This document shows, one piece after another, positions 1-16,206 of a stretch of DNA of 55,678 nucleotides (the first letter of the stretch is position 1; each line of letters begins with the position of its first letter). The notes beneath the pieces are model-generated. The model saw only the letters and a list, made by a program, of their open reading frames with translations, did not search any database and had not been told where the DNA came from. This stretch comes from Deltaproteobacteria bacterium (lineage in GTDB: Archaea; Thermoplasmatota; Poseidoniia; Poseidoniales; Poseidoniaceae), in assembly GCA_028344335.1 (NCBI GenBank), contig JAOMAZ010000008.1:1-55678 (forward strand), written 5' to 3'. The translations under genes were made by a program, and so were the position numbers.

Positions 1-310
1 CCATCGTAGGGTTTGTGAGGAGATGAGATCCGGGGTTAGTAATTTGAGTGTCCTGAATCAATGTTTGGCCAGCAAGATTTTGCATGCTGTAAAATAGATG
101 CTGATTGTTACGAACCCATACTGAATGTAGATTCCCATCAGAGTCGATGACTATTGCTGGCATTGTATCGTTTGAATTTGGTTGGTTGCTAAGTTGGTCA
201 GTTGCATAGACATTGTTTTCTTCAGCACTGCTGAAATCCAACAACATTGGGGACATAGATGAAAAAATAAACAGCATCGATGTCAACAGAGTGAGTTGGC
301 TCTTTTTCAT
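1..310 (-). CDS. Secreted/surface protein, 5' part only (runs off the left edge)
   Basis: An open frame starts at an ATG (308-310) and stays open to the left edge, giving 103 residues. The N-terminus is a signal peptide: MKKSQ, then a hydrophobic stretch to about residue 24, then a polar region (SSAEEN). The following residues include DSDGNLHSVWVRNNQ and LFYSM, which resemble one blade of a BNR/sialidase-type beta-propeller; this resemblance is an inference from a short stretch. An AT-rich TATA-like element lies at about 331-345, roughly 25 bases before the ATG, so the mRNA may be leaderless. The gene starts 134 bases after a tRNA-Pro-like repeat, the same layout as the surface genes at 562-1581 and 4905-8207. 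The C-terminal part and anchor are not visible. Confidence 0.75.
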   Translation of the reverse strand, partial: MKKSQLTLLTSMLFIFSSMSPMLLDFSSAEENNVYATDQLSNQPNSNDTMPAIVIDSDGNLHSVWVRNNQHLFYSMQNLAGQTLIQDTQITNPGSHLLTNPTM

Positions 311-330
311 CAAATCATTATTTGCGAGAG

Positions 331-347
331 ATAAGCAATATATTATT
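331..347 (-). promoter_or_regulatory. TATA-like element for the left-edge surface gene
   Basis: Read on the minus strand, an AATAATATATTGC stretch lies about 25 bases upstream of the ATG at 310, the spacing expected for an archaeal TATA box driving a leaderless transcript. It is called from sequence and spacing alone. Confidence 0.4.
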
Positions 348-403
348 CCGCCGATATCCCGTCTTTTAGTACAAAAAATGATATTCTTTCTTATACTGAT
401 ATT

Positions 404-463
404 ATCAGCGCAAGCAACCTGTTACGGATGCTGAATGCTTGGATGGGTGCGTCTGGGTTGAGC
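404..463 (-). repeat. tRNA-Pro 3'-end-like repeat R1 (att-like remnant)
   Basis: The 22 bases at 426-447 are identical to 8323-8344, which is the 3' tip of tRNA-Pro plus its downstream flank. The match decays through the T-arm region. The leftward extension (404-425) is closely similar to 1672-1693 next to repeat R2. It is not a functional tRNA because no acceptor partner or anticodon arm is present. Its tRNA-end position (444) is 134 bases from the start of the left-edge gene. Confidence 0.7.
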
Positions 464-530
464 ACTGGAATGAACGAAGTGAATGAAGTGCGATGCCTAG
501 GGTCCACAGAACGAGAGATAGCACACGAAG

Positions 531-558
531 TGGGCCCATCCGGACTCTGTCCAAGAAT
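531..558 (-). repeat. tRNA-Pro 3'-like repeat E1 at the end of a surface gene
   Basis: On the minus strand this reads CTTGGAC, a few bases, then TCCGGATGGGCCCA. Both blocks occur in tRNA-Pro (anticodon-stem side, and T-stem plus acceptor), with the T-loop part missing. It lies a few bases after the stop codon of the 562-1581 gene. A close copy (E2) follows the stop codon of the 4905-8207 gene. Confidence 0.6.
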
Positions 559-561
559 TGA

Positions 562-1581
562 TTATTTCTTTTTACGAATCAATGAAAAACACAAAATAAA
601 GAGAATAAACCCTCCTCCTCCAACTCCTGCATATAGCACCATTTCCTTACTCATAGATTCAGTTGTAAGTTCATTCTTTTCTTCTGACTCAATAGTTTGG
701 TTTTGGAAGAAAACTACTTCCTGCAATACATCCATAAACACACAAGCCCCATTTCGACAACTGAATTCACTCGAGACTCTTACAGTAAATTCGACGCTGA
801 TAGAATGCTGGCCATCTGAATTAATTGGCCATTCATCATGGATGTTCGATACTGGAGCATGCACTGACACCTTGAATTTCCACGCAGTTCCATCATTGAC
901 TTCTATCCTTACCGCTGGTAGCGATAATTCCATCTCCAATAGTGCCTGATATCTCCACGATTCCATATCTTCGGGTATGGAGTCGTTCTCGCCGTCAAAA
1001 CCCCCTCTGGTCTGTATCTCGAGGTGGAAATTATCGATCTGATTTCCCTGATTATAAAGGTCGTATTCGAGGTCATAAGTACTACCCGCTTCAATCATGG
1101 CTACTGGTTGAACAGCCTCTACATTAAGGGCAGCAAATTGTAAAATACTAATTATCAACGAATAACTGGTTTCGGCATCCTCTGGGGAGTCCGCTCCATT
1201 CACTTCTTCCACTGTTGCATTAACCCTGAGTACATGAGCGCCCTCAGACATCTGTGGTTCAGCACGAAGGGTAATCTGAAACTCTTCTTCTGAATTAGGG
1301 TCTAAGGTGATTGAACTGGGTCCTGCTGATTGAATTGCGCCTGATTGAATGTCTATGCTAATTTTTTCTCGATATTGACTTGTTGGGTTGCTAACAATAC
1401 ATACCGCTATTCCTTCTAATGTGGCACCAGGGTGTACCTCTATCTCCACATTACTGCTGTTTTTGAGAGAGTGGCATTCAAGATTGACCTCCGGTGCAGC
1501 AGATTGAGCAGAACTAGAATCGATGATTGGTAAGGTTGATGTAAATAGAAGTAACACAACCACCAATATCTTGGCCTTCAT
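562..1581 (-). CDS. Membrane-anchored surface protein, unknown function
   Basis: The protein has 339 residues. Residues 1-25 form a signal peptide (MKAKILVVVLLLF...SSAQSA). The exterior part is beta-rich with two segments resembling NEW3/CARDB-type adhesion modules (for example EGAHVLRVNATVEEV and YDLYNQGNQIDNFHLEI). A single transmembrane helix lies at about 314-335 and the protein ends in RKKK, so it is a type I protein displayed outside the cell. Several N-x-S/T sequons would suit archaeal glycosylation. The ATG at 1581 is the only reasonable start. The gene sits between repeat R2, 130 bases upstream, and repeat E1 just after its stop. No enzymatic motif is visible; a role in adhesion or surface display is inferred from architecture only. 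Confidence 0.8.
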   Translation of the reverse strand: MKAKILVVVLLLFTSTLPIIDSSSAQSAAPEVNLECHSLKNSSNVEIEVHPGATLEGIAVCIVSNPTSQYREKISIDIQSGAIQSAGPSSITLDPNSEEEFQITLRAEPQMSEGAHVLRVNATVEEVNGADSPEDAETSYSLIISILQFAALNVEAVQPVAMIEAGSTYDLEYDLYNQGNQIDNFHLEIQTRGGFDGENDSIPEDMESWRYQALLEMELSLPAVRIEVNDGTAWKFKVSVHAPVSNIHDEWPINSDGQHSISVEFTVRVSSEFSCRNGACVFMDVLQEVVFFQNQTIESEEKNELTTESMSKEMVLYAGVGGGGFILFILCFSLIRKKK

Positions 1582-1671
1582 ATTACTCTGCTAAATGGCT
1601 CTCTACTTGAGTTTAGTCCCGAACGCCCTCGAATATTCTTGGTTAGGCCTTTCCGTACTAGGTCCCAGTAG

Positions 1672-1730
1672 TCAGTGCAAGCAACCTGCTATGGCTGCTG
1701 GTTGCTTGGATGGACCCGTCCGGATTCGGC
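1672..1730 (-). repeat. tRNA-Pro 3'-end-like repeat R2 (att-like remnant)
   Basis: The stretch 1711-1726 (tggacccgtccggatt) matches the tRNA-Pro acceptor and T-stem with one mismatch, and it continues into the same TGCTTGGA flank as 8332-8340. Bases 1672-1710 also match 404-443 beside R1 with few differences. The rest of a tRNA is missing. The start codon of the 562-1581 gene lies 130 bases from the tRNA-end position (1711). Confidence 0.7.
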
Positions 1731-1770
1731 CCCAGAAACAATTTGGGCATCTAGATTAACTACTTGTTCA

Positions 1771-1785
1771 AAATATTATTTATGC
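1771..1785 (+). promoter_or_regulatory. TATA-like element upstream of nurA-herA
   Basis: An AAATATTATTTATGC stretch lies about 50-60 bases before the ATG at 1834. A transcript starting about 25 bases downstream would have a short leader containing AGGGGTGA next to the start codon. Confidence 0.35.
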
Positions 1786-1833
1786 ACTAAGACTATATTC
1801 CGAAAGTGAAACCGAAAGTTTCCACAGGGGTGA

Positions 1834-3087
1834 ATGGCAGTGATTGAAGAGTTCTCAAATATTCTACGCGCATTGTCAACCTCGACAGAATACTATTCGG
1901 CACCACCATCTGGGCCTCCTGAACAATATCCTTCATTATCCAATAATGAACTTGAGAGATTACAACAGACGGTTTATGGGACAATCTTCGGTGGAAAATC
2001 TGCATATTCTTACATGAAGTTAGTTGGAGAGCCAGCCCCAGTTACAGTAAATCTACCATCCCCTGATGAGCTTTCGAATAAATCGTTGTGGAGCATTGAT
2101 GGCAGTAACAAAACATTGGATTACACTGCATTCCATATGATGTTATCACGATCTGCATTAGTTGAATATCAATACAGTACTGTCCCTCTCCCACAACATC
2201 ACTCCATTACAACCAGAGATTGTAGCGGATTATGTATTGTCGATGGAAATATTTTCACCGACAAAGTATACATGTTTAGTCAATCAACGGCTGAACTGAA
2301 GAAAGTAGAGAACACTTCATGGATAGACATTATTCGTAAGGCTACTGAACCACTGATCGTTAGTTATGATTCAAACACATTGGACAAAAAACCCAGTATG
2401 CATGCAATGGGGTGGTGCAACAAATTCATGCAAACTTTAGAGTTGCTATCACAATATGATGTTCCAGTTGATAAACCCGGAGTAGTTATCAGAGATGGAC
2501 CAATATTCCCAATCTATGCTTCAAATGTTGACATTCAGAAATCGTTGGAACATGTCCTCACATGGAATAACAAACTCCTAATTTGCTCCTCAAAAAGAAT
2601 CTCAGAATCAACGTTGTTTTTAGAATTCTTAATGAATCCAGATAATGCGAAAATGATGGAATATTATTTCCCAGAACAAATGATCTCTAAATCTCTATTA
2701 TCCAAACTTCCAGCCGATTATTTGCTATTAAGGAAAATACTGAAACCGGGCCAACGCACCCCCTTTATCGAAGTTTTTCCACATAACCAAAAGAGTATAT
2801 TGAATCATAATTCCGACTTAATACCGATATGTTGCTACTACATGAGAAAAAGACATCCAAACACTATTGTGAGACTAGAATTCCCGAAGAAATATCTCCA
2901 ATCTAATAATCTAGAATGGGCTATATCCTGTGTTGCCTGGCAACATGAAATAGGCTCTAAAGTCCCTCATGTACAAGAATTCGCAGATAGACAATGTCAG
3001 GTATCATCTGAGGTAGAAATTCTAAGGAAAATTACCGCCAGTAAATTGGCAGAAAACATGCTCGAAACAATGGAGGTTTACGAATGA
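1834..3087 (+). CDS. nurA: NurA-like 5'-3' nuclease
   Basis: The protein has 417 residues. NurA nucleases pair with the hexameric HerA translocase to resect DNA ends. The family's metal-binding motifs are visible: DGS at 89-91 within a WSIDGSNKTLDY context, and a RDG motif at 220-222 (VVIRDGPIFPIY). A conserved-looking C-terminal block lies around 375-400 (HVQEFADRQC). The stop overlaps the start of herA by four bases (ATGA), so the two are translationally coupled. Unlike the usual archaeal set, no Mre11 or Rad50 gene lies beside it. The pair lies inside the tRNA-Pro island, on the strand opposite to the flanking surface genes. The family call is good; whether the job is repair or defence is open. 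Confidence 0.82.
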   Translation: MAVIEEFSNILRALSTSTEYYSAPPSGPPEQYPSLSNNELERLQQTVYGTIFGGKSAYSYMKLVGEPAPVTVNLPSPDELSNKSLWSIDGSNKTLDYTAFHMMLSRSALVEYQYSTVPLPQHHSITTRDCSGLCIVDGNIFTDKVYMFSQSTAELKKVENTSWIDIIRKATEPLIVSYDSNTLDKKPSMHAMGWCNKFMQTLELLSQYDVPVDKPGVVIRDGPIFPIYASNVDIQKSLEHVLTWNNKLLICSSKRISESTLFLEFLMNPDNAKMMEYYFPEQMISKSLLSKLPADYLLLRKILKPGQRTPFIEVFPHNQKSILNHNSDLIPICCYYMRKRHPNTIVRLEFPKKYLQSNNLEWAISCVAWQHEIGSKVPHVQEFADRQCQVSSEVEILRKITASKLAENMLETMEVYE

Positions 3088-4859
3088 CTGAAACATTTGC
3101 ATTGAATTATTCTGATTTGCACAATCCATCAATTGTCTCAGGTGGTGGAGCATTTGCTGAATATATTCTACCAACTAATAACTCGATGAAAGAATTGTCA
3201 ATAGGCACAACCATACTGATCAAGGATAAACGCGATAAGAATCTTATATGGATGACTGGGACTGTAATTGAAATGAAATCTCTGTCCCCGTTTATTGCTG
3301 ACAGAGATATTCTTCTTTACAACAAAGCGGGAAGAGATGAGGCAAGTTCAATTCTTCATGAGCTAAGTGGCCCACATAGTGAGCAAAGGTTGATTGCTCG
3401 TGTCCAAATTCTTTCTGAATTAGTCCAAAATATTGATGGAAGTTTCATTCAAACTCCTGTCCAACAACCGGCGAGTAATTGGAGTCGTCTAATTCTTCCA
3501 AAAATGGTTGCTACAGATTCTGAAATACCTACATTGCAGGATATATTGGGCCTAAAGAGAAAAGGAGTACACGTGGGGTATATCGGAGCAGGAAACTTCC
3601 CTCAACAAGAAAACAAACAATTCTTATCATACAACTTGGATGTTGCCAATTTAGACAACAAGCACATGTTCATTGTTGGAGAAAGTGGTTCTGGAAAAAC
3701 AGTACTACTCAAAAAACTAGCATACGAACTAAGACGTTCTGGTAGTTCGAGCCCATCTCCAAAAGTAATAATAACTGATGTTCAAGGTGATTTTCTGCAC
3801 CTACTAATGCCAGATGTTATCGAACCTATACAAAGAACAGGATGGCAGAATCTTATTGATAAAAGTGAAACTGAGGAAGCATTGCAGCAAATGGGTCCAT
3901 TCCAATTACTCTATCCTATGCCAAAAAACCATGATAAGAAAACATTGATGCAACTCAAGACAGTAATAGAAAATAATGGGCATAAAGTTGTAGAAATTGG
4001 ACTCCGGATGCAAGACGTTGAAAATGCTTCAGAAATAGAGTACCTTCTGCGCTTGTCTTCTGAACAAGCAGTTCCTGTCCTGGAAGATGAAATGGAAGCA
4101 ATGCTAGCAGGAGGAGAGACTGTCACTCTTGACAATCTAGAAAATCGGATTCAAAGCATTCTAAATAACGCTGGCGAGGAAAAACAACCGGCAACTTCAG
4201 GCGGAGTCAGATATTACAAGTCAACATTCCGAGCAGTTCTTCGTGGACTTCGACAACTTAGAAATGTCTTTGATCATCATGAGCCATCAAAATTGACTCA
4301 TTTGAATCCGTTAGAATGTCTGAAATTCAATGGAACTAGTGTATTTTATCTTGAACATCTAGATCCTGAAGAGCGTTTGATGTGGGGGATGCAATTAGTC
4401 AAGTGGCTATATGAAAATAAAAGAGAGAAGGGTGAGTTCTTTGTATTCATCGATGAAGCCCATCAATTGATTCCTGCTAAACCACCTACTGCTGGAAAAG
4501 GTGGAACATTTCCCAGACTGCGAGATAACTTCGAAAAGTTAGCTAGAGAAGGTAGGAAATTTGGAATTAATCTAATATTAGGGACACAGTCACCAAGGGA
4601 TTTACATGAAATTGTTCCACAACAATGTCCAACCAGAATAGTCATGAAAATAGACAAGGGGAACGCCAGAGCGGCTCACATCGAAGAAGGTGAAGCAAGA
4701 ATCGCTTCACGATTCGGACAAGGACAAATGTTTCTGCGTTCGCCTTTCAATGGCACCTCTGAGTGGATTAGAGTACATTCAGAAGCACCGCCATTACCTC
4801 ATGAATCAATGACCAAATTCTGGGACAAACTTGCAGATGCAGCGAAGAGTTTGATTTGA
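3084..4859 (+). CDS. herA: HerA-like DNA translocase (FtsK/HerA ATPase)
   Basis: The protein has 591 residues, the usual HerA size. The N-terminal ~125 residues fit a HAS-barrel. Walker A is GESGSGKT at 199-206, Walker B is VFIDEAH at about 452-458, and a GTQSPRDL stretch near 500 matches the sensor region. The region about 255-430 is a helical insertion typical of HerA. The protein is expected to form a hexamer that pumps DNA into NurA. It overlaps nurA by four bases and ends 46 bases before the converging surface gene. HerA proteins act in recombinational repair and, with various nucleases, in antiviral systems; its island location suits either or a mobile-element function. Confidence 0.88.
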   Translation: MTETFALNYSDLHNPSIVSGGGAFAEYILPTNNSMKELSIGTTILIKDKRDKNLIWMTGTVIEMKSLSPFIADRDILLYNKAGRDEASSILHELSGPHSEQRLIARVQILSELVQNIDGSFIQTPVQQPASNWSRLILPKMVATDSEIPTLQDILGLKRKGVHVGYIGAGNFPQQENKQFLSYNLDVANLDNKHMFIVGESGSGKTVLLKKLAYELRRSGSSSPSPKVIITDVQGDFLHLLMPDVIEPIQRTGWQNLIDKSETEEALQQMGPFQLLYPMPKNHDKKTLMQLKTVIENNGHKVVEIGLRMQDVENASEIEYLLRLSSEQAVPVLEDEMEAMLAGGETVTLDNLENRIQSILNNAGEEKQPATSGGVRYYKSTFRAVLRGLRQLRNVFDHHEPSKLTHLNPLECLKFNGTSVFYLEHLDPEERLMWGMQLVKWLYENKREKGEFFVFIDEAHQLIPAKPPTAGKGGTFPRLRDNFEKLAREGRKFGINLILGTQSPRDLHEIVPQQCPTRIVMKIDKGNARAAHIEEGEARIASRFGQGQMFLRSPFNGTSEWIRVHSEAPPLPHESMTKFWDKLADAAKSLI

Positions 4860-4878
4860 GCATCTTCCTTTACAGAAA

Positions 4879-4905
4879 TTGCCCGTCCCGATTCTGTCCA
4901 AGAAT
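4879..4905 (-). repeat. tRNA-Pro 3'-like repeat E2 at the end of a surface gene
   Basis: It is a near copy of repeat E1 (531-558): both read TTCTTGGACAGA on the minus strand, then a degenerate TCCGGACGGGC. It begins right at the stop codon of the 4905-8207 surface gene. It is more diverged from tRNA-Pro than E1 is. Confidence 0.55.
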
Positions 4906-7900
4906 CATTGCCAACGTGTCCATTCCCCACCTGTATGAGCAGGTCGATACCAATTCGCTCCACCCTCTTGCATCCACTCATAACCATCAGTTCCTACAGT
5001 ACCAGCCATCGAAGAATCCGGTGCTGAAGTCTCGACCATGGAAGTCTGATCAATACCTGAATCAGGCTGGAGCATCTGATTGAACTTGAACTCTAGATTG
5101 GAACGAATCCTTTCCAGTCTTAGGGCTTGGTGTGGACCTACCATCTTCCACATGAGTGACCATTCATATGCATCTGAAATTTCAGACAGTTCCTCTTCAG
5201 TGCGTGCTTCAAAGAGCCTGCGCTCATAGGACTTTGTTCGACCATTACGAGTTAGCAAACCGCTGAGAATCCAAAGGCCTAGTGGAATACCACCTAGCAT
5301 CCCAATGAGGTCCCATGCACCCAACCCGATTGCTGTTCCTGGCATTACCAATTCGAATGTTTCAACTGGCTCTTCAGAAGAACTGTATGGGTCTGTTCCA
5401 AGCCTCATCTCATCAGTATCAGCCCAACCATCGTCATCATCGTCAGTATCTTCGTTGTCTCCAACTCCATCGCCATCATAGTCGCTACATTCCCTAGCGT
5501 TTGCAGGGAAGGTATCGTTCTCATCCATGCATCCATCATTGTCCAAATCCCCTGGGCTGGCTAGTTTGGGTAAGACGTCGATAGTGTCATTGAATCCATC
5601 ATTGTCAAAGTCGTTCAAATACGGGTCAGCATCGGTTCCGGATTGGTTGTCGCCAAATCCATCGCCATCATTATCTTCCCATTGTGTTGGATTGTTGGGG
5701 AACATGTCATACAACCTTCCAGCAGGATTGTCGCCATATCCATCTCCATCTGAATCTGCCCATTGTGTTGAATCGGTGATGAATGCATCCGGATTAGTTC
5801 CTGTTTGGGTATCTCCATATCCATCTCCATCTATATCTCCCCATTGTGTTACATCATCGGGGAACTTGTCAGCTCCTATTCCCATTGGGTTGTCGCCCAT
5901 TCCGTCGCCATCTCTATCTTCAGATTGTGTTGGATCGAATGGGAACATGTCTCGAGAATCCTCAACACCATCTCTGTCTGAATCTTTCCATCGAGATAAA
6001 TCATTAGGAAATCCATCATTTAAATCGCTATAGCCATCACCATCTGTATCTATGCAACCATATACATCTATGACTGAAGTTCCGTAGGTATCTGGACAGT
6101 AGTCTCCAAAATTACCAAAGGGATAATCGCCAAAACCATCACCATCTTCGTCGATTTGCTGAGTAGGGTCTGAAGGAAACTGGTCTCCATTCTCTCCATT
6201 CGGGTTGTCTCCAGAACCGTCCCCATCAGCATCTGACCACTGTGTTTCTTCATCAGGGAAGGCGTCGATTACATCTGCGAATCCATCGCCATCTGAATCA
6301 ATGCATCCTAGATATCCTGGCGAAGTACTATTGCCATATTCTGTTGGACAGAAGTCTCCATATGGTCCTAACAACTCATCTCCGAATCCATCAAAATCGC
6401 TATCCTTCCATTGACTGGAATCATCTGGGAATGTATCCTCAAGGTCTGCCCATCCATCAAAATCTGTGTCTGGGCAACCGAATGTGTTGTTCTTGTTTGA
6501 AGTACCATAGGAACTAGGACAATAATCTCCCCTTATTCCTCCAAGATTATCTCCGAAACCGTCGAAATCAGTATCGTTCCACTGAGATGCATCATTGGGA
6601 AATAAATCTCCAAGGTTCGAATAGCCATCAGAATCCATGTCAGGGCAACCAAATCGGTCTATTGTCGAGTTTCCAGATTGAAGATAACATGCATCGCTTT
6701 GAAATCCAGTTGCACTATCTCCATATCCATCATTATCGGAATCAGTTTGTTGAGTTGAATCAGTGGGAAAGGCATCAATCAAATCGAATGTTTCGTCGGC
6801 ATCAGTATCATTCCACTGCATCTTTATCCAATACTCATCCTGCCCATTGCTATTTTCTATAGATTCAATTACAACAATCCCATTGTCTACTAATTCAGCC
6901 CATTCGGTTTCAATCGGTGATTCTAGGTTAAGAGAAATATTGACGTAATTCTGTTGTAATGGAGAATATGAGTGCCATTTATTGTTACTATACCAATTCT
7001 CTTTCGAAAACTGGGACGATAGATGGTTAGATGGAGGGCAAACATCCTGGATTGAAGTATAATTTGAATTAGCAAAGTCGGCATAATAGATGTTGCAATC
7101 GGAACCTCCACTACTACTGAATGCGATATTGTTTCCAGATTTCGTTCCAATTTGGAAACAACTTACTGAGGAATATGCCGCTTGTGATTGACACAACTGC
7201 ACTTCATCGCTATATGATCCGGAATAACTCTTGAATTGGAATTTGTATCTATGATCATCATTGGTAGATGTGTGAGTCCTATATCCAAATCCATATCCAT
7301 CATTTGAAACTACAATTTCATCCAATTCAGCAAAACAAGTGCCACGACCAATACTATCATCGGTAGCTGGATTACCTGATGATCCCACTGAAGTCTGATG
7401 GTACTGGCTTTTTGAGACCTCAGAAGTTCCATTTAGGGCAATAATATTAGTAACGAACTCCGTATATCCATATTGTAAACGGTTATGCATATACGAAGAG
7501 GGGTTATTATGAACAGTGAATGTGTTAATCGGGTAAATTATCACTACATTGTTTTCAGAGATATCAAACAAGCCCTGCTGTCTAATGTATTCAAGGACTT
7601 TGTAATATCCGGCATTTACATCAAGATTTGTGTTCCCTGAACCGGTATCAACACATTTGCTATTACCCCCCTCAATGTGGCGATTTGAAATAGAAATTTG
7701 TGAATCCGTAGATGAATGTTCTTCAAACGTACCATTTACATATTGATCCAGTGTTATGGTCAATGTCTCTGAACTACTAGAAATTCCATTACTTGTAGGG
7801 TCTCCAGAAAGAGAATATGTTGTCCTAAATAGAGAACTATTCCAGAGGAAATAGTCACCAACAATTGGGTCATTAGATTGTGCATAGTGGTTGTTGTGAT

Positions 7901-8207
7901 TTGGAAATTTAGTCATGCTCCAAGTGTTGTTATTCCATACCAATAGCCTCCAAGTTCCCGGATTCTTATCATAATACAATATTGACAAATTATCACCATC
8001 TTCCGCAACTTGATAGAAACCTATTCCATTATCTGAAGGATCGAGATACGGTATTTCCTCGAGGTAGTTCATTGTAGAAAAGTTCGCATTTGTCGATGTA
8101 TTCATCATATCCTCTTCAAAACCCAATTGCGATTCTGGAACTGGGTATGTAATTACAAGACTTACGACCATCATTAGCAGAACTGGGATTGTACAGTTAT
8201 CGCGCAT
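4905..8207 (-). CDS. Giant TSP3-repeat surface protein (calcium-binding)
   Basis: The protein has 1100 residues. The ATG at 8207 is chosen because residues from there form a signal peptide (MRDNC, hydrophobic to about 24) and a TATA-like box lies about 25 bases upstream; the frame extends further only through a TTG at 8246. An N-terminal ~450-residue globular region is of unknown fold. It is followed by about 14 aspartate-rich thrombospondin type 3 repeats (D-x-DGDGYGD...FP-x-DPTQW), which bind calcium in this family. A transmembrane segment lies at about 954-982. A cytosolic tail ends in a short Trp-rich module (DGYEW...NWYR...EWTRW) that recurs at the end of the second TSP3 protein (38527-41862). 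The gene lies between tRNA-Pro and repeat E2. A role in adhesion or particle attachment is inferred. Confidence 0.87.
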   Translation of the reverse strand: MRDNCTIPVLLMMVVSLVITYPVPESQLGFEEDMMNTSTNANFSTMNYLEEIPYLDPSDNGIGFYQVAEDGDNLSILYYDKNPGTWRLLVWNNNTWSMTKFPNHNNHYAQSNDPIVGDYFLWNSSLFRTTYSLSGDPTSNGISSSSETLTITLDQYVNGTFEEHSSTDSQISISNRHIEGGNSKCVDTGSGNTNLDVNAGYYKVLEYIRQQGLFDISENNVVIIYPINTFTVHNNPSSYMHNRLQYGYTEFVTNIIALNGTSEVSKSQYHQTSVGSSGNPATDDSIGRGTCFAELDEIVVSNDGYGFGYRTHTSTNDDHRYKFQFKSYSGSYSDEVQLCQSQAAYSSVSCFQIGTKSGNNIAFSSSGGSDCNIYYADFANSNYTSIQDVCPPSNHLSSQFSKENWYSNNKWHSYSPLQQNYVNISLNLESPIETEWAELVDNGIVVIESIENSNGQDEYWIKMQWNDTDADETFDLIDAFPTDSTQQTDSDNDGYGDSATGFQSDACYLQSGNSTIDRFGCPDMDSDGYSNLGDLFPNDASQWNDTDFDGFGDNLGGIRGDYCPSSYGTSNKNNTFGCPDTDFDGWADLEDTFPDDSSQWKDSDFDGFGDELLGPYGDFCPTEYGNSTSPGYLGCIDSDGDGFADVIDAFPDEETQWSDADGDGSGDNPNGENGDQFPSDPTQQIDEDGDGFGDYPFGNFGDYCPDTYGTSVIDVYGCIDTDGDGYSDLNDGFPNDLSRWKDSDRDGVEDSRDMFPFDPTQSEDRDGDGMGDNPMGIGADKFPDDVTQWGDIDGDGYGDTQTGTNPDAFITDSTQWADSDGDGYGDNPAGRLYDMFPNNPTQWEDNDGDGFGDNQSGTDADPYLNDFDNDGFNDTIDVLPKLASPGDLDNDGCMDENDTFPANARECSDYDGDGVGDNEDTDDDDDGWADTDEMRLGTDPYSSSEEPVETFELVMPGTAIGLGAWDLIGMLGGIPLGLWILSGLLTRNGRTKSYERRLFEARTEEELSEISDAYEWSLMWKMVGPHQALRLERIRSNLEFKFNQMLQPDSGIDQTSMVETSAPDSSMAGTVGTDGYEWMQEGGANWYRPAHTGGEWTRWQ
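5395..6810 (-). repeat. Tandem TSP3-coding repeats
   Basis: This coding region is built of degenerate tandem units of about 80-110 bases, each encoding one or two D-x-D-x-DG calcium loops separated by a short hydrophobic FP-x-D segment. On the plus strand it appears as recurring ccatctccatctgaatct-type blocks. It produces many spurious antisense open frames. Confidence 0.8.
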
Positions 8208-8224
8208 ACCATGTCTAAACCGAC

Positions 8225-8238
8225 TTAAAATATAGGGT
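8225..8238 (-). promoter_or_regulatory. TATA box for the TSP3 surface gene
   Basis: CCTATATTTTAAG on the minus strand lies about 20-30 bases upstream of the ATG at 8207, consistent with a leaderless mRNA beginning at or next to the start codon. Confidence 0.5.
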
Positions 8239-8340
8239 TTGACCAATTACGTTGAGATGTAAAAGAGAATTAAACTAGATACTGCTTCCCTTCGAACAGG
8301 AAACTGCCTCAATCCTTGTTCTGGATGCTGAATGCTTGGA

Positions 8341-8415
8341 TGGGCCCGTCCGGATTTGAACCGGAGTCCAAGCGTCCCAAACGCTCGAGTATTGGCCAAG
8401 CTAACCCACGGGCCC
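8341..8415 (-). tRNA. tRNA-Pro (anticodon UGG)
   Basis: It folds as a complete 75-base cloverleaf. The acceptor GGGCCCG (8409-8415) pairs with CGGGCCC (8342-8348), with A as discriminator at 8341. The anticodon arm has stem GAGCG/CGCTT around loop TTTGGGA, giving anticodon TGG. The T arm is TCCGG-TTCAAAT-CCGGA. CCA is not encoded and no intron is seen. Its 3' end points into the island, and partial copies of its 3' end and flank are scattered through 400-4905, so it is probably the integration site. Confidence 0.93.
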
Positions 8416-8450
8416 AATGGCTCGCCCACCAGCGACCCCATCATAAGACT

Positions 8451-13186: not shown

Positions 13187-13765
13187 ATGGAATCAGATAT
13201 CGATATGCCCTGTCCTATTTGTTCTAAATCTGGACAATTGAAGATGATTTCACATATTGATGATATCCCGTACTTTGGAGAGCATACTCAAGTTACCCTA
13301 TTGTGCAATGACTGTGGATGGAGACAAACTGATTTCATCCCTGCCGATGGTAAGAAGCCTGTTGCATCATCTCTTTTTATCAGTGGGGAGGAGGAATTGA
13401 GAGCTCGAGTTGTACGTTCATCTAGTTGTACTATCTCAATCCCTGAATTGGAATTAGAAGTCAGCCCAGGCACTTCAAACTCTGGTTATGTTAGCAATAT
13501 AGAAGGGGTTCTTGACCGCTTTATCCAAGTGGTTGAGATGGTCTTGAAAGACCTCGATGACCCTACACAAGTAGGTGCTGCAACCCGTATTTTATTGGTG
13601 CTAAATGAGGTGAAAGAAGGACGGGGGGCTGGAATAACGGTAGAATTCCTTGACCCACGCGGTCATAGCATGGTGCTGCATGAGAATACTGTTAATCGGG
13701 AATTGACCGAAGAAGAGTTGGAGAGTTTGCCTGTTGGGCCAGAGCCACCGGTCATTGAGAAGTAA
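13187..13765 (+). CDS. ZPR1-type zinc-finger protein
   Basis: The protein has 192 residues. It has a single C4 zinc finger, CPIC near the N-terminus and CNDCGWRQTD about 33 residues later, followed by the beta-rich ZPR1 homology region (SLFISGEEELRARVVRSSS...PGTSNSGYVSNIEGVLDRF). The eukaryotic homologue, with two such modules, is involved in translation factor eEF1A folding and signalling; archaeal members have one module and are thought to act similarly. The ATG at 13187 is preceded by GGAG. A GTG at 13178 overlaps the sepF stop and is an alternative. It is probably cotranscribed with sepF and converges on trpS with no gap. Confidence 0.88.
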   Translation: MESDIDMPCPICSKSGQLKMISHIDDIPYFGEHTQVTLLCNDCGWRQTDFIPADGKKPVASSLFISGEEELRARVVRSSSCTISIPELELEVSPGTSNSGYVSNIEGVLDRFIQVVEMVLKDLDDPTQVGAATRILLVLNEVKEGRGAGITVEFLDPRGHSMVLHENTVNRELTEEELESLPVGPEPPVIEK

Positions 13766-15133
13766 TCAACGGGCATCTGGAGCAAGGAAGTCCTTAACCA
13801 AATGAGCATTTTGCGCTTTCAATTCTGCGTGTTCATTCATCCATTCCAAGGCCCTGTCAACACACAGTTGTTTCATCTCACCAGCCAATAAAGTTCCTGC
13901 TCTATAGGAAGCGGCGGTATCCCTTAGGAAGTCATCATCATCCTCGAAGAAGAACATCATGTACTGAAACGCCACATCTTTTTCTGGATCTCCACCTAAC
14001 CTGCGGTGTTCCTCAAGTGTGGCTTGACCACCGGAAAAGGCTCGTTTGATTTTCTTTTCTATTAATTCAGGTGAATCATTTAGGAAAATCGTAGTCTTAG
14101 GCATTGAAGATGACATCTTATCTCCTGTTAGTCCAACTGCAAAGCGATGGTAGGTACTCGAAGGTTGTAGCAAACCCATCCCTCCCATCTTGCGCTCCAA
14201 TGACAATAAGCGCATTCTGATATTTGCTCGGTCTTTAGCCGTAGCAGAAGGGATGTGGACCGAACCATGCTTGGGATTGGAAAGGAAGTCAGCAAATCCC
14301 AAATCCGTTAATTCGGCGCAAATATCGGTAAATACCTGATTTTTCTTCTGCCGGTCGTTTTGACCAAGTGCCTCTCCATTTTCATCCTGCACAGAAAGAC
14401 CGATGACTAAACCCCCATTCTTGGCTGGTTTAACATTGAACCAATTCGTTTTGGCAGCCATCCCACGAGTCAGACGCAAGTGTGGGTCTTGGTCAACTCC
14501 AACTGGAACTACAATAGGACGCAAACCGCCGTATTCATCTAATTGTGGATGGATAATATCACCGGCCTGAACCAATGGTGCCTGAACATGCGCAAGATTG
14601 GTATCGCCCGAAAAACCGTAGATAGCTTCCATCTCTGAGAGGTTGGTTTTCTTGCCCAAAGTAAAACCTAATTTTTGCGTAATTGGGCGGGTGGACTGAA
14701 AGTAAACATTGGTCCGGTTAGGGTCTAAACCCATTGCAACATAATTAGAAATATACTCTTCAAGTGCTATACTTCGTGCATCTGCTAGGCTAACGCCACG
14801 AGTTGCATTAGATTCAAGGTCGGCTACAGCAATGGTGACATCACCGCCTTGCTGCTGGAACCAGCGCACTTGGTCGATAACCATCTTGTGGCCCAAATGC
14901 ATTTGCCCACTTGGCATCAAGCCGGTCATTACTCCAAATGGCTTACCAGAATCACGAGCATCAAGAACAACATCAAGGTCTCGATGAGCAAAAACAATGC
15001 CTCGTCGCTGATGCAGACTTGCATCATGAATTGAGGTTGCATCCAGTGGAGTAATACCAAATTGCTCGATGATTCGCGAATAGTCAGTCGACTGGTCGCT
15101 GGACCATGGGTCGATGCGTACCTCGCTTGCCAT
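13766..15133 (-). CDS. trpS: Tryptophanyl-tRNA synthetase
   Basis: The protein has 455 residues. It is a class I synthetase of the archaeal/eukaryotic TrpRS type: the HIGH motif is HLGH at 79-82 (GLMPSGQMHLGHKM), and the KMSKS loop is KMSSSMPKT in the C-terminal third. It also has PVGVDQDPHLRLTR, typical of TrpRS. It charges tRNA-Trp in the cytoplasm. The ATG at 15133 is chosen because GGTGAG precedes it and the residues upstream are not family-like. Its 5' end is 89 bases from the divergent oxidoreductase gene. Confidence 0.95.
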   Translation of the reverse strand: MASEVRIDPWSSDQSTDYSRIIEQFGITPLDATSIHDASLHQRRGIVFAHRDLDVVLDARDSGKPFGVMTGLMPSGQMHLGHKMVIDQVRWFQQQGGDVTIAVADLESNATRGVSLADARSIALEEYISNYVAMGLDPNRTNVYFQSTRPITQKLGFTLGKKTNLSEMEAIYGFSGDTNLAHVQAPLVQAGDIIHPQLDEYGGLRPIVVPVGVDQDPHLRLTRGMAAKTNWFNVKPAKNGGLVIGLSVQDENGEALGQNDRQKKNQVFTDICAELTDLGFADFLSNPKHGSVHIPSATAKDRANIRMRLLSLERKMGGMGLLQPSSTYHRFAVGLTGDKMSSSMPKTTIFLNDSPELIEKKIKRAFSGGQATLEEHRRLGGDPEKDVAFQYMMFFFEDDDDFLRDTAASYRAGTLLAGEMKQLCVDRALEWMNEHAELKAQNAHLVKDFLAPDAR

Positions 15134-15222
15134 CCGCTCACCTGATGTCGTTGCCTTTACATTCAGGGGATGAAGGCTTCGCCACATAGAAGTGGCATGA
15201 GCCATTAAGGAAAGTGATTGGG

Positions 15223-16206
15223 ATGGCGCGGATAGTGGTTCTTGGGGCCGGCCTGATCGGCAAATTCGTGGCATCTCGATTACTTGAGCATGATTTGTTG
15301 GTCGTTGATAATTGCCAAGAACCACTCAATGAATTGAATTGTCAAACTCTTTGCTGTTCAGCTTTTGATGTTCTAAATATGGAAGATGTGGATGTATGGG
15401 TAAATATGCTACCTGGGAGAGTTGGGCATGCAGTAAGGCAACCACTCCTGAATAAAAATCAAACAATTGTAGATTTGGCATTCACAGCAGAAGACCCTCG
15501 CAATCTGCAAGGCGGTAGAATGGTCTATGATGTCGGCATTGCACCAGGACTTTCCAATCTCTGGAGTGCAGCGATTGAGGGAATTAAGAGATTGGAAATT
15601 AAAGTCGGTGGCATCCCTTGTCAGCCCGACGAAGGCTGGTCCTACATGGCGCCATTCTCTCCAAGCGACGTCATTGAGGAATATACTCGTCCAGCAAGAG
15701 TCATCATAGCAGGAGAGCAAAAAGAAATACCTGCCTTGGAAATGCGGCATATGGTCGAAATCCCTAATGTTGGCAAATTAGAGGCTGCAATAACCGACGG
15801 GTTGCGAAGCCTACTCGATACAGTAGAAGCCGAGACTATGCTGGAATATACATTGAGATGGCCAGGCCATTATGAAAAATGGTTAGCATCTAGCCAAGAT
15901 GAAGAATTGGCAAATGAATGGCAATTTGATTCAAGCAGAGAAGAAATGACTGTCATGACGGTTGCCGCCACAATAAAAAACGGAGAGTGGAATGGCTATC
16001 TTATTGACTATGGTAAAGATGATGATTCATCTATGGCAAGGACCACAGGGCTGGTCACTCTAGCGGCTATTGATGCTGCTCTTTCTGGATTGATTCCTGA
16101 GGGGGTGCATCCTCCTGAAGGGGTTCCCGAACTATTGCAATTAGCAGAAAAAAGACTTCAAGATGCTGGTGTGCAAATAGAAAGAGATTCATTCTTCCTC
16201 AAGTGA
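15223..16206 (+). CDS. Saccharopine dehydrogenase-like NAD(P)-binding oxidoreductase
   Basis: The protein has 327 residues. A Rossmann fold starts at the N-terminus (MARIVVLGAGLIGKFVASRLL), and a DLAFTAEDP / YDVGIAPGLSN layout matches saccharopine dehydrogenase and lysine 6-dehydrogenase relatives. The catalytic substrate is not identifiable. The C-terminal part (TVMTVAATIKNGEW...TTGLVTLAAIDAAL) fits the second domain of this family. No other lysine-metabolism gene is adjacent, so the pathway is open. The ATG at 15223 lies directly before the GAG-Rossmann strand. It converges with, and overlaps by 18 bases, the next minus-strand gene. Confidence 0.8.
   Translation: MARIVVLGAGLIGKFVASRLLEHDLLVVDNCQEPLNELNCQTLCCSAFDVLNMEDVDVWVNMLPGRVGHAVRQPLLNKNQTIVDLAFTAEDPRNLQGGRMVYDVGIAPGLSNLWSAAIEGIKRLEIKVGGIPCQPDEGWSYMAPFSPSDVIEEYTRPARVIIAGEQKEIPALEMRHMVEIPNVGKLEAAITDGLRSLLDTVEAETMLEYTLRWPGHYEKWLASSQDEELANEWQFDSSREEMTVMTVAATIKNGEWNGYLIDYGKDDDSSMARTTGLVTLAAIDAALSGLIPEGVHPPEGVPELLQLAEKRLQDAGVQIERDSFFLK

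Follow-up and report, generated by a model that had tools for sequence, protein, structure and literature searches.

Why should a tRNA gene be trailed by several partial copies of its own 3' end, with unrelated genes lying between them? The question is posed by a contig of a Marine Group II (MGII) archaeon, JAOMAZ010000008.1 (GCA_028344335.1), which we analysed from positions 1 to 55,678 of the forward strand (55,678 nt, hereafter the window) and in which the gene for tRNA-Pro(UGG) closes a region of this kind (1-8416). MGII archaea are among the commonest microbes of the surface ocean, and we know of no account of how they vary the proteins met by viruses and grazers. A preliminary description of the window, made from its letters alone, had interpreted the region as the result of repeated site-specific insertion of surface-gene cassettes at tRNA-Pro. 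Comparison with related genomes leads to much the same view, which is borne out by a pair of empty and filled sites, reassortment of site arms, tandem junctions and turnover of cargo: we put at roughly 85% the probability that the region is a tRNA-Pro-anchored island, built up as small units, usually of one gene each, were integrated site-specifically again and again.

The window comes from a bin of 1.32 Mb (57% complete) and from a genus, here g1, represented by six genomes; the genomes G042 and G012, which are central to the argument, belong to one other genus (g8). The tRNA-Pro locus was compared across several genera, with one genome per species.

Copies of the tRNA-Pro 3' end

Two kinds of copy can be located in the window. 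The first, R, consists of the tRNA-Pro 3' end with its flank and occurs three times (405-470, 1672-1737 and 8317-8356), whereas the second, E, is shorter, continues differently and occurs twice (534-558 and 4881-4905), in agreement with what had been described. The 22 identical bases (GGATGCTGAATGCTTGGATGGG) reported for the first R copy (R1) and the tRNA-Pro end are likewise present, about 16 of them falling in the 3' flank of the tRNA gene. When up to two mismatches were allowed, the R pattern matched the three window sites and nothing else in the 1.32-Mb bin, and the E pattern occurred nine times in 146 genomes of the family; reversed or control patterns gave no match in either search. Because the patterns are confined to these loci and the controls are empty, a chance origin is excluded; these are genuine repeats, well beyond what chance would yield. 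The E pattern was found in five of the six g1 members and in G012 only. Seven of its nine occurrences are at tRNA-Pro loci, one is beside tRNA-Val, and the ninth is on a scaffold of G002 that carries tRNA-Pro, with an N gap between the two, so that the repeats do recur at the tRNA-Pro loci of other genomes.

The repeats are halves of a recombination site

All sites share the core GGGCCC(A/G)TCCGG, which is the 3' end of tRNA-Pro(UGG), the common part being about 10-12 bp long. Aligned on this core, the left arms are of type P (GCTTGGATGG), of type Q (CACACGAAGTGG) or unique, and the right arms are B' (the tRNA itself), P' (ATTCTGTCCAAGAATC), M (GTTGAGCACTGGAATG) or unique. In the core-aligned table for g1, P and Q are each found with every one of B', P' and M, which gives the six possible combinations: P-B' (window 8347, as well as G005, G004, G002 and also G012), P-P' (G005 7616, with a degenerate version at window 1717), P-M (window 450 and G004), Q-B' (G001 and G003), Q-P' (window 537) and Q-M (G001 1020). 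The presence of all six requires crossovers inside the core, and unrelated arms are exchanged exactly there. R and E are thus halves of a recombination site, neither leaders nor terminators. The preliminary description had taken them for two repeat types that mark the start and the end of a gene; they are instead left and right site halves, between which the cargo may lie in either orientation. It had also recognised that E looks like tRNA-Pro with the T-loop removed, an appearance explained by the arms of the P-core-P' site.

The complete site reads TTGGATAGGCC-CATCCGG-ATTCTGTCCAA, with two inverted arms of ~11 nt (TTGGAYAG) flanking a spacer of 7 nt. As far as sequence can tell, this layout is that of a tyrosine-recombinase site, and it resembles archaeal dif, which is organized as 11-6-11 (PMC8371274). 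The P-core-P' site at position 7616 in G005 is the junction predicted for a circular form of a unit, and it sits between tandem units.

Empty and filled sites and turnover of cargo

The clearest view of an insertion is offered by G042 and G012, in which the gene adjoining tRNA-Pro is of the same kind (85% protein identity). In G042 the site is empty, the neighbouring gene running directly into the tRNA (ATCAGTGAATNGAGTGGGCCCGTCCGGATTTGAACC). In G012 the left flank is G042-like as far as the core and is followed by P' (ACTCTGTCCAAAAAT), by an insert of 1,243 bp with a single gene for a 370-aa protein with a signal peptide and a transmembrane (TM) segment (6684-7796 +), and then by P, the core and the tRNA. 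This is the pattern expected from a circle carrying P-core-P' that integrates into X-core-B', where X stands for whatever sequence preceded the target.

The content of the locus changes from species to species. The conserved proteins nearest to the tRNA on its own side are 92-97% identical among the window, G004 and G005, and no cargo proteins match between the tRNA-Pro islands of the window, G004, G005, G002 and G012; a gene set fixed in all relatives is thus not what the comparison reveals, the cargo differing in every species. Individual units recur all the same. The mini-unit M is present in the window, G004 and G001, both G001 and G002 have a DEAD-box helicase gene beside a core site, and G004 and G005 have in common a unit of ~430 bp, located right of the same lipoprotein gene, after which the two genomes split exactly at CATCCG. 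Such units have been recombined between species despite the differing cargo. G002 lacks an E site here, and only 159 bp separate the end of its lipoprotein gene from tRNA-Pro. In most other genera examined, conserved genes adjoin tRNA-Pro or lie no more than a few hundred bases away, with accessory genes adjoining it in G019 and G050, for example. Two features of tRNA islands are therefore present, namely a conserved locus with variable content (occupied in g1 and in G012, vacant in G042 and for the most part elsewhere) and cassettes that end in direct repeats of the tRNA 3' end. That contigs of G003, G004 and G001 end 37 bp to 1.1 kb past tRNA-Pro is only suggestive of variation within populations. 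An apparent 8.5-kb inversion in G002, from the E site at the DEAD-box helicase gene to tRNA-Pro, was dropped from consideration, as it adjoins a run of N (a scaffold gap).

How the units may have entered

We propose that each unit behaves as a circle with the attachment site P-core-P'. Its recombination with the tRNA-Pro 3' end (X-core-B') would produce X-core-P', i.e. E, on the far side and P-core-B', i.e. R, on the tRNA side. Since tRNA-Pro would be left intact, the target could be used again, and later units might enter either at the tRNA or at half-sites already in place. Excision would likewise proceed through circles, presumably by a tyrosine recombinase supplied in trans, either a XerA-like protein of the host or one from an element outside these bins. 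Any benefit would presumably lie in variation of the surface proteins that viruses or grazers encounter.

No recombinase gene or integrase fragment was recognised in any unit, which accords with the remark in the preliminary description that no integrase is visible. At least one protein with the PF00589 domain is encoded in 36 of 39 genomes, and G000-G003, four of the six g1 bins, have a single one each. The protein of G000, encoded on a contig other than the window's and adjoining a RimK-like gene, is nearest to archaeal XerA (PDB 5hxy, 2.1e-36; NF040815 is the best profile, matched below its cut-off). The archaeal phage integrase domain PF16795 was absent from the eight genomes searched. It is possible that a host XerA-like protein acts in trans on P-core-P', in the manner of IMEX-like elements, which use the host Xer at an attachment site resembling dif. 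Two tyrosine integrases (39% identical) are encoded directly downstream of tRNA-Glu(UUC), in G004 (L074 1510-2550) and G005 (L075 4680-5657), and represent conventional integrative elements at another g1 tRNA.

Several points weigh against the island as we read it. No recombinase is tied to these sites, and the role assigned to XerA is a guess; serine recombinases were found only in G000 and G005, one in each; and a search for dif by inverted TTGGAYA arms returned, besides the G005 site, only scattered and unconserved matches and identified no MGII dif. Neither a circle nor polymorphism within a population was seen among the single genomes that represent each species. Several half-sites (1717 and 4884) have degenerated, and the island may therefore in part be a fossil. 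Completeness of the bins is 57-87%, and the window's contig stops inside the island, the left end of which lies past the contig.

How the process is driven can be imagined in more than one way. It is conceivable, and we offer this tentatively, that the host itself runs a cassette system in which a XerA-like or other resident recombinase captures and shuffles one-gene circles for surface proteins at tRNA-Pro and at other tRNAs (tRNA-Val in G002), so that the locus would serve as an integron-like device for surface variation, with the ~90-bp mini-units as non-autonomous relatives. The units might, alternatively, be decayed integrative plasmids or viruses that had an integrase of their own and used tRNA-Pro as the target (attB), single genes remaining after internal deletions. 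We regard such an origin as possible yet doubtful. The integrases that adjoin tRNA-Glu in G004 and G005 would fit it, as would the Charybdis elements, which enter MGII tRNAs and have integrases (PMC12324425), the degeneracy of some half-sites and the resemblance of the NurA-HerA pair to mobile-element or defence cargo. However, the 1.24-kb insert of G012 keeps an intact gene and both half-sites and is not visibly deleted, the units yielded no recognisable integrase remnant, and even very small units, among them a noncoding one of ~87 bp, take part in the reassortment of half-sites.

Homologous recombination or replication slippage between the tRNA-end repeats, with no site-specific recombinase, appears improbable. 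Slippage could account for the tandem ~93-108-bp repeats, tRNA 3' ends included, that follow tRNA-Ala and tRNA-Trp, but a core of ~10-12 bp is short for homologous recombination and yet unrelated arms are joined precisely there, and the difference between G042 and G012 is a gain of unrelated DNA, not a duplication.

A constant leader spacing had also been emphasized for this locus. The distances from R to the gene starts at 310, 1581 and 8207 are indeed 134, 130 and 134 bases. In the relatives the corresponding distances are 78, 97, 101, 128 and 211 bases, and the cargo gene is reversed relative to the sites in G004 and G012; because the spacing varies and either orientation occurs, the regularity in the window is a coincidence. 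The idea that R and E are transcription signals of the surface genes (leader or promoter, and terminator) that resemble a tRNA end, for which the position of R upstream of three gene starts and of E at the 3' ends of two genes in the window could be invoked, is practically untenable, being contradicted by the empty/filled pair, by the spacing, by the reversed order in G004 (13680-16064 +) and G012, by the occurrence of R without a gene (the M unit) and by that of E at species-specific junctions.

Comparison with described systems

Additive flexible genomic islands (fGIs) at tRNA genes are known from streamlined marine bacteria, including Ca. Actinomarinales (PMC7771536), Methylophilaceae (fGI-2; PMC10872708) and Alteromonas (fGI1; PMC4119200). 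The last 20 nt of tRNA-Lys recur in the Methylophilaceae islands (PMC10872708), and those of Actinomarinales have envelope-related cargo (PMC7771536). The tRNA-Pro island belongs to this broad kind, with which it shares the fixed position at a tRNA, the gain and loss of cassettes between relatives and the direct repeats of the tRNA 3' end. It differs in its MGII host, in units that mostly hold one surface gene (1.2-3.5 kb) or ~87 bp of noncoding DNA, and in having left and right half-sites that are defined and reassort, with the P-core-P' junction itself seen.

Archaeal elements with tyrosine integrases use the 3' half of a tRNA gene as attB and restore the tRNA, and their attachment sites may extend outside it; unlike the units described here, they carry their own integrase, and they share a core of 40-50 bp instead of ~10-12 bp (PMC8371274). 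Tycheposons, at least as outlined in the source cited, are cargo-carrying elements of 4-200 kb with a tyrosine recombinase, found at tRNA genes of marine prokaryotes (PMC10872708); judged against that outline, our units are alike in placing cargo at a tRNA and unlike in their size (0.09-3.5 kb) and in having no recombinase genes. Charybdis elements of Poseidoniales, circular and ~4.6 kb long with a structural module, share the host group, and several integrate beside tRNAs, the integrated ones carrying an integrase (PMC12324425); no integrase was found in any of our units, in which no search was aimed at the Charybdis hallmark Gp3. The tandem single-gene cassettes separated by recombination sites recall archaeal integrons and clusters of attC sites lacking integron integrases (CALINs; PMC9668308), from which they are set apart by the tRNA anchor, by gene orientation, which is not fixed, and by the lack of IntI, attI and sites of the GTTRRRY/attC type. 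The only PF00589 protein of G000 scores 104.9 against a cut-off of 265 for the NCBIfam integron integrase, and P-core-P', which has no GTTRRRY, forms a hairpin no better than those of shuffled sequences (z -0.38); an integron was rejected on both counts.

Searches of IMG/VR with the site patterns gave no match for the long forms and four for a 16-mer, close to chance. The literature searched on MGII genomic islands, to the exclusion of subscription journals, contains no description of this locus. The statement that no system of this kind had been described thus holds for these archaea within that literature and has to be qualified in view of the additive islands of marine bacteria. What appears to be undescribed is the form, i.e. 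an archaeal host, one-gene units free of a recombinase, explicit half-sites that reassort and mini-units of ~86-108 bp at several tRNAs. The bacterial idea of tRNA-anchored additive islands is thereby extended to MGII archaea and reduced to one gene per cassette. From the half-sites (P, Q, P' and M around GGGCCCRTCCGG) one can predict the positions at which circles, junction reads and strain differences are to be expected in existing ocean metagenomes, and the same sequences are the substrates of choice for assays of a candidate recombinase.

Cargo and sites of the island

The features of the island are listed in table 1, together with short tandem units found at other tRNAs.

Table 1. Genes, sites and units of the tRNA-Pro island (window coordinates unless a locus is named). 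ORF, open reading frame.
Feature	Position	Strand	Basis or remarks
N-terminus of secreted protein, truncated by contig end	2..310	-	ORF, signal-peptide-like N-terminus
Site P-core-M (R1)	405..480	+	left arm GGATGCTGAATGCTTGGATGGGTG, core CGTCTGG 450-456, right arm GTTGAGCACTGGAATGAACG
Mini-unit M, noncoding, ~87 bp core-to-core	450..543	+	homologue adjoins tRNA-Pro in G001 (L107 1020-1106); partial in G004
Site Q-P' (E1)	513..567	+	left arm CACACGAAGTGGGCC, core CATCCGG 537-543, right arm ACTCTGTCCAAGAAT
339-aa choice-of-anchor T family surface protein, signal peptide, C-terminal TM + RKKK	562..1581	-	NF041740 1.5e-51
Site P-core-P'-like (R2)	1672..1747	+	left arm GGCTGCTGGTTGCTTGGATGGACC, core CGTCCGG 1717-1723, right arm degenerate, matching P' at 14/20
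nurA-like nuclease	1834..3087	+	PF09376 NurA 8.8e-10
herA-like ATPase	3084..4859	+	PADLOC HerA 8.9e-24; DUF87/HerA_C
Site x-P' (E2)	4860..4914	+	core CGTCCCG 4884-4890, right arm ATTCTGTCCAAGAATCATTG; left junction of 4905-8207 unit
1100-aa secreted protein, DxDxDG (thrombospondin-3-like) repeats, TM segment, C-terminal EWTRWQ	4905..8207	-	ORF; stop codon within P' arm
Site P-core-B'	8323..8373	+	left arm GGATGCTGAATGCTTGGATGGGCC, core CGTCCGG 8347-8353, followed by T-arm of tRNA; right junction of tRNA-nearest unit
tRNA-Pro(UGG)	8337..8416	-	ARAGORN; Rfam RF00005 at 8341-8415; 3' end = attachment target (attB half B')
Tandem units at other tRNAs	L154 605-710 (tRNA-Ala); L165 ~770-996 (tRNA-Trp), 1493-1690 (tRNA-Arg); L148 2357-2460 (tRNA-Met)		

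Surface proteins, whether secreted, anchored or lipoproteins, dominate the cargo, which elsewhere includes a thrombospondin-3 surface protein (G004), lipoproteins (G004), membrane proteins (G005) and a helicase. Surface-gene cassettes is hence mainly an apt name, with the reservation that NurA-HerA and the DEAD-box helicase are carried as well. The 1100-aa protein of the island (4905-8207) has no Pfam match and, apart from similarity of its repeats, no homologue at the tRNA-Pro locus of the relatives. The ~55 bp that follow the P' arm (window 4881-4970) encode its C-terminal EWTRWQ and survive in G004 (L030 13552-13620) as a broken relic only, which suggests that an ancestral surface gene ended at P'. 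The best PADLOC match of the nurA-herA pair (1834-4859) is a defence-associated HerA, and the pair, an accessory that nearly all relatives lack, may be a defence module rather than a repair pair. HerA was not found in 38 relatives, save for a remnant of 31-33 aa in G022, nor in a search of viral contigs and phages.

Other tRNA genes and mini-units

Copies of tRNA 3' ends also occur downstream of other tRNA genes. Leaving aside tRNA-Trp, which has an intron, nine copies were counted for 42 g1 tRNAs, against none from 20 shuffles per probe, and one for 43 tRNAs of other genera. The offsets are +93 for tRNA-Ala(UGC) in G000, +98 for tRNA-Met in G001, +108 and +216 for tRNA-Trp and +191 for tRNA-Arg in G004, and +1501 for tRNA-Val in G002. 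The short ones delimit noncoding tandem units of ~93-108 bp, or of 191 bp in the case of tRNA-Arg. Every such unit finishes with a copy of the 3' end of its own tRNA, and the units are possibly non-autonomous mini-elements or products of slippage. Single-strand folding revealed no unusual stability of the mini-units (z from -0.2 to -2.0). A related, dispersed hairpin sequence (CGTGATGCTGAGTRATGTTCAGT) has eight copies in g1 (e.g. in tRNA 3' flanks of L029, L077, L148 and L165). Six of the eight follow a tRNA at a distance of no more than ~170 bp, and the sequence was matched neither in Rfam nor in those family genomes outside g1 that were searched.

At tRNA-Val(UAC) of G002 (L144 3539-9731), copies of the tRNA-Val 3' end separate a gene for a 1530-aa secreted protein and a gene for a 326-aa protein. 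The same locus has a thrombospondin-3-like surface gene in G000 and G004 and none in G003. The tRNA-Val locus of G002 is a second tRNA-anchored variable locus; among the several loci of this type, that at tRNA-Pro is the richest.

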